A stretch of 64,000 bases of DNA from Pseudomonadota bacterium (GTDB taxonomy: Bacteria > Desulfobacterota > Binatia > Binatales > Binataceae), in assembly GCA_021324755.1 (NCBI GenBank), contig JAJPIL010000014.1, positions 434,001 through 498,000 on the forward strand, read 5' to 3'. Below are positions 53,145-56,461 of the stretch, piece after piece. Below the pieces are notes generated by a model. That model searched no databases, was not told the DNA's origin, and saw only the letters and a program-made list of their open reading frames with translations. Each line of letters opens with the position of its first letter. Within the stretch, counting starts at the first letter, position 1. A program made the position numbers and the translations under genes.

Positions 53145-54320
53145 CTAGTGGTGGTGATGCCGGTGGTGGAGGTCGGGAAGATGGTCGTGGGTGTGAACCA
53201 TCGGCAGATGGCGGTGCCAATGCGAATGCGGCTCCCGGAGCGAGGGCAGTCCGACGTGGTCGTGCTGATGATGTATGTCGTGGGTGTGCGGGTGCTCGTG
53301 GATGAGCTCTTCGTGGACGTGCTCATGGACGTGTCGATGGCGCATCATCAGCGCCAGTCCACCGGCCGTGACAAGCCCTGCGCAAAGCTCGGAGAATCTT
53401 AACCATTCGCCATTAATCGGGCCAGCCATCAAAGCGCCGACGAAAGGCGCGGTCGCGAATACCGTGGCCTGCCTGGCCGCGCCGATATACCTCAAAGCGT
53501 AGACGTACAATACCACACTTGCACCGTAACAGGTCGCGCCGATACCCAGGGCGCCAATGCACAGATGAGCCGGCGGCATCGCCAGGCCTATCGTGCGAGT
53601 AAGAATCAGGCTGAACAAGCCTGCCGCGAGCGTTTTCACGCGGGCAACCGCCAATGGGTTACGCGTCGACAGGCACTGCGTGAGATTGTTATCGATCGCC
53701 CACAACATCGCCGCCGCGGCAAGTTTTAGCGCGGCAAGCACGCTGCCCGTAACCGTCGCGCCTGAATTAACGCTAAGTAGGCTACTGCCCACAAGTACGA
53801 GCGCAGCGCCTAGAAGCTCTTGCCCCTCGAGACGATCGCGAAACAGAACGGCTGCGAGCATCACAGTGAAAGGCGCTTCTAGGTTTAGCATCAACGAGGC
53901 GGACGCGGCAGATAGGTGCTTAAGACCCGATAGCATCAGAACGGGAGCTAGTACCCCTCCAAACAATACCACGCCAGCCATCAGGTAAGCGTCTTCGAAT
54001 CTGAGGTCGACTTCTCGTGACGTGCTGTCGCGTTTGCTGCAAACCTTCTGCAGGACGCTTATCACCGACAGGATCGCCCCAGCGCCCAAATAAAATAGCG
54101 ACGACAACACGAGTGGCGTGCTCTGTGGTAGGACCAGCTTGGCCAATGGCGCGCTAAGTCCGAAAAGGACCGCCGCCAGAAGTCCGAGAACAATGCCTCG
54201 ACTCCTGTGCCGGTCGTCGTGTTGTGCGCACTCACCTGGAAGTGGCACCAAGGGCGTCTCGCCACTCCCGTTTTTCGACGCGAGGTTAAGAAGATTTTCG
54301 TCAGTTCGAGACTTTTCCAT
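53145..54320 (-). CDS. DMT/EamA-family transporter with histidine-rich C-terminal tail
   Basis: A 391-residue protein. After a 40-residue polar start, ten predicted helices form two EamA repeats (GIVLGLLAAVLFGLSAPLAK opens the first; SASLMLNLEAPFTVMLAAVL is a typical EamA helix). The last ~67 residues are a soluble tail with about 26 histidines, including HHRHHHH at the very end. Such tails often bind nickel, zinc or cobalt, so metal export or metal-sensitive transport is an inference. The gene starts 13 nt after the MFS gene and is co-oriented with it. Substrate is unknown. Confidence 0.85.
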   Translation of the reverse strand: MEKSRTDENLLNLASKNGSGETPLVPLPGECAQHDDRHRSRGIVLGLLAAVLFGLSAPLAKLVLPQSTPLVLSSLFYLGAGAILSVISVLQKVCSKRDSTSREVDLRFEDAYLMAGVVLFGGVLAPVLMLSGLKHLSAASASLMLNLEAPFTVMLAAVLFRDRLEGQELLGAALVLVGSSLLSVNSGATVTGSVLAALKLAAAAMLWAIDNNLTQCLSTRNPLAVARVKTLAAGLFSLILTRTIGLAMPPAHLCIGALGIGATCYGASVVLYVYALRYIGAARQATVFATAPFVGALMAGPINGEWLRFSELCAGLVTAGGLALMMRHRHVHEHVHEELIHEHPHTHDIHHQHDHVGLPSLREPHSHWHRHLPMVHTHDHLPDLHHRHHHH

Positions 54321-54333
54321 TTCGGACGCAGCT

Positions 54334-55548
54334 TCAACTCAGTGCCATCATGACTGCCGCCCCGAAACTTGTCAGCGCGCTGTAGGCAAAAGCGGTCTTG
54401 GCGCCGACTTTGGTCCACAACAAGCCGACCAAAAAACTGGAGACCAGATCGCCAAGGCCGTTAGTTGCGGCTAGAACTCCAAAGCCCGTGCCGCGCACGG
54501 CGGCTGGGGCGAGCTCTGCCGCGATTGCGCTTTCCAGAGTTTCTTGCGCGGCCATAACCGTGCCAGCAAGTGCAAAAAGCAACAGGAGCCAGCTTAGTCT
54601 TGCTGGAGCAAACGCAAAGCCCATCGCCGTTACGGCGTTGAGGCCGTAACATAAGGCAAGCATCCTTCGGCGCGAGAAGCGATCCCCCAGCGCTCCTAAG
54701 GGGAAGCTCATCAGCGCATGGACCGCGTTATGGACGGCGTAAAGAAAAATCGCGGTAGTCATCGCGCCGCTCGTGCCGCCCATCAGCATGGCTGCTCTCA
54801 TAACGAGCATGCTGTGGGCAAAATCGCCGATTCCAAAAAGCCCAACTGCGAAAAGAAACCGCCGAAACACCGCTGGAACCGCCTCTTGCCACGGCCGCGG
54901 CGAGATCTTTTGCCCGCGCTCATGGCGGCGCGGCTCGTCTACCGCAAGCAAGAAGCACGCGCCAGCCAGAATGCCCGGAATCGCGGTAATAAGAAAAAGC
55001 GTCTGCAGGCTTAAATACTCGAGCGCAACCATCGCAACCAGCGGCCCCATCACCGCCCCGAGCGTGTCTGCTGCGCGGTGAAGGCCGAAGGCTTTCCCCA
55101 TGTCGGGGCCAGGCGTGGAATCCGCGAGCATCGCGTCGCGCGCAGGTCCGCGGATACCTCGGCTAAACCATCCCACGGTGCGCGCTACCAGCAGCTCTGT
55201 CCACGAACGCGCAAGCGAAAAAAGCCCGGTCGACACGCCTGTGATAAAATAGCCAGCGCTCGCTGCGAGATGGCGTATCTCGACCCTGTCCGCCACCCTG
55301 CCTCCCATAACCTTGGCCATCGTCGAAGCGCCGTCCGACACGCCTTCGATGATCCCTAGCGCCGCAGGCGAAGCTCCCAAAGTGATTAGAAAAAGCGGCA
55401 GCGCAGCGGTGGCCATCTCATGCCCCAGGTCGGAAAGCAAACTAGAAAGGCTCATGGCCAGCAAATTTCGGCTGAGCCATCGCGCGCGGACAGCGGCAGC
55501 CTCGGATGAAGCGGGACGAAGCTTTCGCAATACGCTTAGGAGAAGCAT
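54334..55548 (-). CDS. Major facilitator superfamily transporter
   Basis: A 404-residue protein with about 12 helices. The MFS loop 2-3 motif is GRVADRVEIR, with its counterpart GALGDRFSRRRMLAL between helices 8 and 9. RTVGWFSRGIRGPARDAMLAD lies in the motif-B region. No substrate-specific feature is visible. It is the first gene of a two-gene unit with the His-tailed DMT transporter, so a shared substrate or stress role, possibly metal, is plausible but unproven. Confidence 0.88.
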   Translation of the reverse strand: MLLLSVLRKLRPASSEAAAVRARWLSRNLLAMSLSSLLSDLGHEMATAALPLFLITLGASPAALGIIEGVSDGASTMAKVMGGRVADRVEIRHLAASAGYFITGVSTGLFSLARSWTELLVARTVGWFSRGIRGPARDAMLADSTPGPDMGKAFGLHRAADTLGAVMGPLVAMVALEYLSLQTLFLITAIPGILAGACFLLAVDEPRRHERGQKISPRPWQEAVPAVFRRFLFAVGLFGIGDFAHSMLVMRAAMLMGGTSGAMTTAIFLYAVHNAVHALMSFPLGALGDRFSRRRMLALCYGLNAVTAMGFAFAPARLSWLLLLFALAGTVMAAQETLESAIAAELAPAAVRGTGFGVLAATNGLGDLVSSFLVGLLWTKVGAKTAFAYSALTSFGAAVMMALS

Positions 55549-55658
55549 CTTTTCAACGACGACTGGACTGCATAGGTGTAGGCGAACTTCGCCGAATTGC
55601 TGATATTATTCACATTTAAACATTGTAAAGCGTGAAGATGTCTGCGGCGACGTCGAAG

Positions 55659-56138
55659 CTACGTCGTCTCGAGCCGTTTCGCCGGCGGGCGCATCGCGTA
55701 TATCCGCGTAAGCTTTACTTCGAATTCGACCACGTAGCGCTCTTTTCCCGAACGGCCCGGTCGCGCTGGTCTTCGGCTTCCAGGAACCTCTGCCGCTCGT
55801 CCGTAAATGATCACTACCGCGCCTCGATTGTCCCAGGTCGTAAAGGCGACCCGGGGATTGGTGTGTAGGTCGCTACGCCGCACCGCGTTCTCGTACACAA
55901 ACACGCGCAGGCTCGCACCCTTAAGCCGCGCATGCACCGGCGCAATATGCGGTTGCCCATTTGTCCCAACCGTCGCCATCGCGACTAGCGAAACATTGCG
56001 CCAAAATTCTTGCAGCTCCTGGGCTGTCATCTGCCGCTCAGGATATGCGACAGAATCGGCAACTGCGGGCGTCGCCGTTCTGACACTTTTTTCAATTAAA
56101 CTGTCAATCGCCTCTAAATTGATTTCGTCTGCCTTCAT
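55659..56138 (-). CDS. Pyridoxamine 5'-phosphate oxidase-family (FMN split-barrel) protein
   Basis: A 159-residue protein from the ATG at 56138. The split barrel is visible in VSLVAMATVGTNGQPHIAPV, LRVFVYENAVRRSDLHTNPRV and FTTWDNRGAVVIIYGRAAEV; the last part ends in a KLTRIYAM strand. It probably binds FMN or F420; substrate unknown. The frame is open 45 codons further upstream without a clear ribosome site, so longer forms are possible. It lies 110 bp downstream of the MFS gene's start region, on the same strand. Confidence 0.8.
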   Translation of the reverse strand: MKADEINLEAIDSLIEKSVRTATPAVADSVAYPERQMTAQELQEFWRNVSLVAMATVGTNGQPHIAPVHARLKGASLRVFVYENAVRRSDLHTNPRVAFTTWDNRGAVVIIYGRAAEVPGSRRPARPGRSGKERYVVEFEVKLTRIYAMRPPAKRLETT

Positions 56139-56461
56139 GATATTCGCAGTACCCTTACGCCTCATCGCGCCGGGCAAAAGTCTCGTTCGGATTCTCCTAT
56201 AAAAGTCGCCAGCTTTCCATCTAACAATAGGTTGCCCGTGTGGCGGAAGCTCGGTCCCGACCGAGCCCGGCAAAACCTCAAGTGATGTTGCGCAGGCAAG
56301 CGCGCTGTCGGTTTATGCTAAAACAGTCCTTACGCCGGATTGGCTGTGCGGTGTCGCACCCAGCCGCCCGCCGGTATACGCTATAAAAAGACTTTAAGCG
56401 ATCGGGACCGATGCGTAAGCCTGTCGGGGAGGTTCGATCGCGAGTCGTTAGGATTGTCATC
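56139..56461. other. 323-bp divergent gap before the crotonase-fold gene
   Basis: Likely promoter region for both neighbours. In-frame extensions of both genes enter it (to 56273 on minus, from 56411 on plus) but lack ribosome sites. Nothing else is recognised. Confidence 0.45.

Follow-up and report, generated by a model that had tools for sequence, protein, structure and literature searches.

The locus

The locus lies within a 64-kb window, the whole stretch of DNA that was analysed, and consists of two adjoining transporter genes on the minus strand (Table 1). The reading frames of both the EamA and the MFS protein are intact and bear out the initial annotation in that the EamA protein ends in 67 residues containing 26 histidines (counted by eye; the last 75 residues hold the same number), with the MFS gene lying 13 nt upstream. 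Given that distance, co-transcription of the pair is likely. Sites resembling promoters (three, compared with 1.4, sd 1.2, in shuffled sequences) or terminators (five, compared with 4.5) are not clearly above chance. Beyond the gene for a pyridoxamine 5'-phosphate oxidase (PNPOx) type protein lies an enoyl-CoA hydratase-like frame running in the opposite direction, while a Jag-like gene converges on the pair from the EamA side, both of these names being readings of the frames. Most homologue alignments begin only at residues 23-44 of the EamA protein, and its true start may be further downstream.

Table 1. Coordinates of features in the window and at related loci
Feature	Position	Strand	Details
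EamA/DMT transporter, CnrT type by similarity	53145..54320	minus	391 aa; His tail after ten membrane helices (predicted); Pfam EamA 1.8e-26
C-terminal His tail	53148..53348	minus	67 aa, 26 His; predicted cytosolic; from translation, alignments and model
Tail unit 1	53256..53333	minus	26 aa, residues 330-355; H.H.H.H....H.H.H..D.HH.H.H
Tail unit 2	53151..53228	minus	26 aa, residues 365-390; same pattern
Gap between EamA and MFS genes	54321-54333		13 nt; same strand on both sides
MFS transporter	54334..55548	minus	404 aa; His tail lacking; clade frequently preceded by fluoride riboswitches, none found here; Pfam MFS_1 1.3e-40
Pyridoxamine 5'-phosphate oxidase family gene (F420-type)	55659..56273	minus	110 nt upstream of MFS
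MFS remnant in genome G015	L107 7700-8130		N-terminal part only; directly before an intact tailed EamA gene
Clade MFS genes downstream of a riboswitch	L159 4640-7903; L133 1282-2673; L154-L158; L164; L166		riboswitch on same strand

Relationship of the EamA protein to CnrT

Matches of the EamA protein in plasmid records include genes annotated as cnrT, nickel diffusion facilitator, from Cupriavidus metallidurans. In a single pairwise comparison with CnrT the identity was 41% over 338 aa (E 1e-53), the alignment running through the tail. The cnrT copy on pMOL28 is the last gene of cnrYXHCBAT. In the parts of the literature available to us, cnrT is counted as a DMT member (PMC7019866), its product is called an inner membrane exporter (PMC9045368), and Ni(II) export is attributed to 'DmeF, CnrT, and CnrCBA' (PMC11647595). 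The protein described here and CnrT of C. metallidurans CH34 both combine a DMT/EamA body with a double-unit His tail. Unlike cnrT, the present gene does not adjoin cnrCBA or cnrYXH and is preceded by an MFS gene of another kind; its product is also longer at the N-terminus by roughly 20-40 residues, which the homologue alignments mostly leave uncovered.

The AlphaFold2 model of the protein contains ten membrane helices, with a mean pLDDT of 87.5 over the chain, and matches the structures of DMT carriers, best of all VIA (Z 27.0, rmsd 2.8 over 273). Other fold matches are LicB, sugar-nucleotide carriers and 5i20, which we take to be YddG. When solved structures were searched by sequence, LicB was the sole match (E 0.002), and NCBIfam gave sub-threshold resemblances to amino-acid and other DMTs. 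Alignment of the window protein with its relatives shows that the membrane part of the CnrT-type proteins has invariant residues of its own. No relatives were found in the viral contigs searched. By these sequence comparisons, the EamA protein is of the CnrT type, sharing its tail.

A duplicated module in the tail

The tail is built from a 26-residue unit present twice, mostly at a spacing of 35 residues, and in the window protein all 12 template positions are matched in both copies. Among 82 sequences (the window, 80 further loci described below and CnrT), both units are exact in 71, with D or N accepted at the D position. At least ten of the 12 positions are matched in both units of 77 of the 82 tails and in none of 24600 shuffled versions of them; the template was itself derived from these 82 tail sequences and the two-unit definition is our own. 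No description of the double unit in the CnrT tail was found in those portions of the literature that were available.

Two strands per unit are present in the AlphaFold2 model, residues 331-336 pairing with 339-345 and 365-371 with 374-379, and the same strands are obtained when the tail is modelled without the membrane part (mean pLDDT 72.4, pTM 0.43). Each unit is predicted, with middling model confidence, to form a β-hairpin. If the turn comprises the two residues between the strands, the histidines at unit positions 1, 3 and 5 would lie opposite those at positions 16, 14 and 12, all on a single side of the hairpin.

The initial annotation had placed the tail in either the cytosol or the periplasm. 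With ten helices, and with a mean of 10.4 Lys and Arg residues in the loops on the tail side compared to 2.0 on the other (77 sequences, helix ends being those of the window model), the positive-inside rule favours the cytosol and speaks against the periplasm. The tail would then be a cytosolic, duplicated 26-residue module in which each hairpin would carry histidines on one face, an arrangement by which it would bind cytosolic metal. The bound metal might be fed to the ten-helix carrier, or the tail might gate that carrier.

Distribution of the tail

Matches to the EamA protein were present in 20 of 57 related genomes, its own included. The alignment of the 19 full-length homologues, one from the window and 18 from other genomes, extends across the tail, where 17 columns are entirely His; two contig-end pieces, L018 and L021 of genome G024, were left out of this alignment. 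The largest departure from the tail pattern is seen in L016, which has 18 His in its last 75 residues, and the other departures are single.

Relatives were sought more widely by a contig scan whose search patterns came from two segments of the membrane part and none from the tail, and the best 80 of at least 553 were kept. All 80 have the tail, with 21 to 27 His each, one of them (L069) with a frayed end; since the 80 were picked by full-length score, a choice favouring tailed proteins, this is no proof against untailed cousins. Their record labels include Proteobacteria, Cyanobacteria, Actinobacteria, Gemmatimonadetes, Verrucomicrobia and others, together with one archaeal MAG. Across 37 aligned tails, 21 columns are entirely His. 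Of the 80 loci, 76 went into the larger alignment together with the window sequence; CnrT and near-duplicates were not included. The 80 loci and the related genomes overlap as samples, L022, L023, L025 and L080 probably corresponding to genomes G016, G020, G017 and G009, respectively.

A profile of the tail matched in 12 of 297 phylum genomes. Eleven of these matches lie on an EamA body, as judged by BLASTP; the twelfth is cut by the end of the sequence, with the remaining part EamA-like by eye. At E 0.001, the tail was not seen on non-EamA kinds of protein in these 297 genomes. Comparison of the tail alone with plasmids by tblastn gave no match, an uninformative result with low-complexity masking on.

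Recurrence in the 19 full-length related homologues and in all 80 further loci argues that the spacing in the tail is not due to chance. The tail is therefore retained in orthologues, so that the refutation which the initial annotation had tied to its absence does not apply, but the notion that it is unusual on EamA permeases is not supported: on present alignments it marks the CnrT type and is not an oddity for an EamA protein.

Neighbours of the tailed EamA genes

Genes for RND proteins homologous to CnrA occur near 29 of the 80 relatives, within flanks of up to 10 kb, this being a raw count. At nine of these 29 loci, of which three are near-identical, the RND gene shares the strand of the EamA gene and has its midpoint 1.9-2.7 kb upstream of it. 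The RND homologues are 22 to 64% identical to CnrA, and the four below 26.5% may be general RND pumps. RND genes are common, with a TIGR00914 match in all 57 related genomes.

Immediate neighbours belong to scattered families: ACR_tran (RND) is found upstream at 2/75 loci and downstream at 1/75, while cation-efflux genes (2/75) and metal-sensing repressors (2/75) also occur upstream. This census covers, on each side, 75 of 78 loci, 78 of the 80 having a called neighbour on that side. Genes were called by a crude longest-frame rule that in its first form missed the EamA gene itself at 17 of 80 loci and that was later run with the EamA gene fixed beforehand. Between RND pump and EamA gene, four Aquabacterium/Burkholderiales loci encode a protein of 128-131 aa with, by reading, a lipoprotein-like start; it was dropped as a general partner, being found only in L029, its near-duplicates L031 and L032, and L033.

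Homologues of CnrA, CnrB, CnrC, CnrX, CnrH and NccA were absent from the 64-kb window at E 1e-3, and the EamA gene here is thus not part of a cnr determinant (cnrYXHCBAT), having no CnrCBA pump, CnrX or CnrH homologues nearby. Its genome yields at least 14 RND matches; among those listed, the closest one that shares its contig lies about 190 kb from it, and the others are on different contigs. A search of the same genome for a true NiFe hydrogenase yielded nothing beyond a partial hit on a complex-I-like protein. High nickel demand is accordingly not supported, and that line of explanation was dropped.

The MFS gene and conservation of the pair

The MFS nickel carriers NreB and NrsD have a histidine-rich C-terminus and were cited for it in the initial annotation. 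The window MFS shares the MFS superfamily with NreB (encoded in nccCBA nreB on pMOL30) but lacks a His tail, and BLASTP gave no significant similarity to the MFS encoded beside nccA on pMOL30 (best E 0.038), so that its identification as NreB was rejected. This pMOL30 protein, described in its record only as 'MFS transporter', is NreB according to the available parts of two papers (PMC7019866, PMC7060636). The sequence taken as NreB also ends without a His-rich C-terminus. A different MFS on pMOL30 is 36% identical to the window protein. At E 1e-30 the window MFS was matched in 14 of the 57 genomes, its own included. A related MFS, split between two overlapping frames, immediately follows mcr-5.1 on a plasmid of E. 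coli (L105 4911-6145).

Conserved linkage with the His-tailed EamA gene was not found, and its lack is one of the two outcomes that, on the terms of the initial annotation, refute the proposed unit. Only one of the 18 full-length EamA homologues in other related genomes has an intact MFS gene alongside, and one other has a remnant; these are in two genomes, G027 and G015, of one other genus of the family. The gene order PNPOx-MFS-EamA is the same in both as in the window. The G027 MFS is 67% identical to that of the window, while that of G015 is an N-terminal remnant of about 100 residues, matching residues 24-103 before a stop, beside an intact EamA gene with its tail. Four genomes (G013, G016, G017 and G031) have both genes on different contigs. 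Across 35 genomes of the family, the His-tailed EamA is present in 14, a close MFS (at least 55% identity) in 9 and both in 6 (Fisher p 0.068, or 0.116 without the genome of the window; the distant MFS of G024, at 35%, and the G015 remnant were scored as absent), so that the presence of one gene is not clearly correlated with that of the other. Further afield, a related MFS was found at just one of the 80 other EamA loci, L043, where it is 2.8 kb away and falls in another clade of the MFS tree; both flanks reach at least 9 kb in 44 of these loci and at least 3 kb in 55. The adjacency looks local to a few related genomes.

An MFS clade associated with fluoride riboswitches

Descent of the MFS was examined in a tree of 39 rows, which took in 20 extra places, the best 20 after its own in the search of 297 genomes. 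The window MFS falls among 17 rows (16 loci) that split from the other 22 with support of 100/100, and the inner nine rows of this clade are likewise supported at 100/100 (root by midpoint). A fluoride riboswitch (RF01734) is present at 10 of the 16 clade loci, and at nine it lies upstream on the MFS strand within the stretch examined. At L104, a long branch of unsure placement, it is on the divergent crcB side. Two of the nine, L155 and L157, are near-identical and count as one independent case. No riboswitch was found at six clade loci, namely those of the window, G027, G008 (near a contig end), G255 and the two rows from plasmids, L103 and L105. Among the 22 rows across the main split, one (L168) has a riboswitch, again upstream on the MFS strand; the flank is only about 1.5 kb in four of the 22, and some are on short contigs.

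In genomes G013, G016, G031, G033 and G017 the MFS gene comes after a same-strand run of frames that starts at a riboswitch approximately 5.1-5.2 kb upstream and that contains HEAT-repeat and dynamin-like genes, with, in G016, a phosphoesterase as well (Pfam). The run in G023 consists of riboswitch, DUF190-CBS, CrcB and MFS, and in G046 the riboswitch ends no more than 161 nt before the MFS gene. The link of the clade to fluoride is drawn from gene position at the nine loci. Nothing naming this MFS clade in fluoride operons was found in the parts of the literature that could be searched.

The window MFS belongs to the same clade as these riboswitch-led genes and is approximately 40-67% identical to members from related genomes, but no riboswitch was found upstream of it. 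Rfam models revealed none over 50-58 kb of the window, and a tailored model with filters off gave at best 4.3 bits over 53-57 kb. Since none was found upstream, the window MFS is placed with the fluoride-associated genes by descent and not as a fluoride-regulated gene. An inverted repeat before the MFS gene (55581-55593), considered as a possible first stem of a riboswitch, scored 1.8 bits, has no like repeat in G027 or G015, and was rejected. Nor was a riboswitch found near the tailed EamA genes, whether in the window, at the 80 loci or at another 18, where the top score was 15.4 bits (E 0.25). The 80 loci were scanned with the tailored model R1 only, which was built from riboswitches of the MFS loci and which recovered the Rfam-level riboswitches of L164, L166 and L168 outside its training.

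Interpretation

Similarity to CnrT, tail included, together with the CnrA-like pump genes near 29 of the 80 relatives, makes a metal carrier the most plausible identity for the EamA protein; that part of the initial annotation stands. Specifically, we propose, with a probability of about 0.74, that it is a CnrT-type DMT exporter moving Ni(II), and perhaps Co(II), from the cytosol across the inner membrane. The substrate assignment depends on one characterised relative at 41% identity, and both metal and direction follow from that resemblance. Points against this reading are the lack of a nearby RND pump gene in the window, the lack of a clear NiFe hydrogenase in its genome, the commonness of RND genes in general and their rarity as immediate neighbours of the relatives. 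It is doubtful, if still credible, that the protein exports Co, Zn, Cu or Fe in place of Ni, with the tail serving to buffer divalent metals in general. Binding of several metals is a property of His tails, cation-efflux genes and metal-sensing repressors are found upstream of a few relatives, and the broad range of identity of the neighbouring RND proteins to CnrA suggests that substrates may vary; against this, the sole relative named and described in the accessible parts of the literature is the Ni(II) exporter CnrT. We consider it very improbable that the tail is a cytosolic metal store only, on a membrane part that transports a usual DMT substrate, for instance an amino acid. The weak NCBIfam resemblances and the fold matches to LicB, YddG (5i20, so taken) and sugar-nucleotide carriers would suit such a protein, but the tail was found on a single kind of body, the membrane part is marked by invariant residues of its own, and the role of CnrT, as given in the portions of publications available, is that of an exporter.

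The other part of the initial annotation, a new metal-handling unit made up of both genes, fared worse. That the two genes work together as a metal unit confined to this lineage is improbable. The short same-strand gap, the identical gene order in G027 and the co-occurrence in six of 35 family genomes are in its favour. These have to be set against the G015 locus, where an intact tailed EamA gene accompanies a mere MFS remnant, the four genomes with the genes on separate contigs, the lack of a related MFS at 79 of the 80 other loci and an MFS clade that points to fluoride rather than metals. Instead, since the EamA protein is by alignment a CnrT relative with a widely shared tail and the MFS belongs to a group often found in fluoride-response operons, the pairing is probably accidental. 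The two genes bear the marks of different stress responses, one of nickel/cobalt export and the other, by descent, of the response to fluoride. The MFS would be a separate module from a clade frequent in fluoride operons, and its adjacency to the EamA gene would not need any shared function. A bolder proposal, which we regard as a long shot, is that the clade comprises undescribed fluoride-stress transporters and that its member here left a fluoride operon and became tied to a CnrT-type exporter, forming a unit for metal ions disturbed by fluoride. The gene positions at the nine loci back the first half of this proposal, whereas the functional tie is poorly supported.

With the CnrT-type exporter as the preferred reading, a widespread group whose members are often labelled just 'DMT family transporter' in plasmid records becomes assignable to a known nickel exporter, and the tail is so exactly recognisable that many annotations could be sharpened. 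The duplicated module, if it folds into the predicted hairpins, offers a concrete object for asking what a cytosolic His tail contributes to a metal exporter. The MFS clade behind fluoride riboswitches is, for its part, a candidate for a new component of the fluoride response.

Two further fluoride riboswitches were observed away from these genes. The genome of the window has one on contig 3 (L161), near a complex-I-like cluster with NuoCD/NuoL-like genes, and G027 has one on contig 40 (L162), near a NuoCD/NuoL-like membrane complex and beside CrcB and DUF190-CBS genes. Formate hydrogen lyase is named as a common fluoride-riboswitch enzyme in the part of a review that was available to us.
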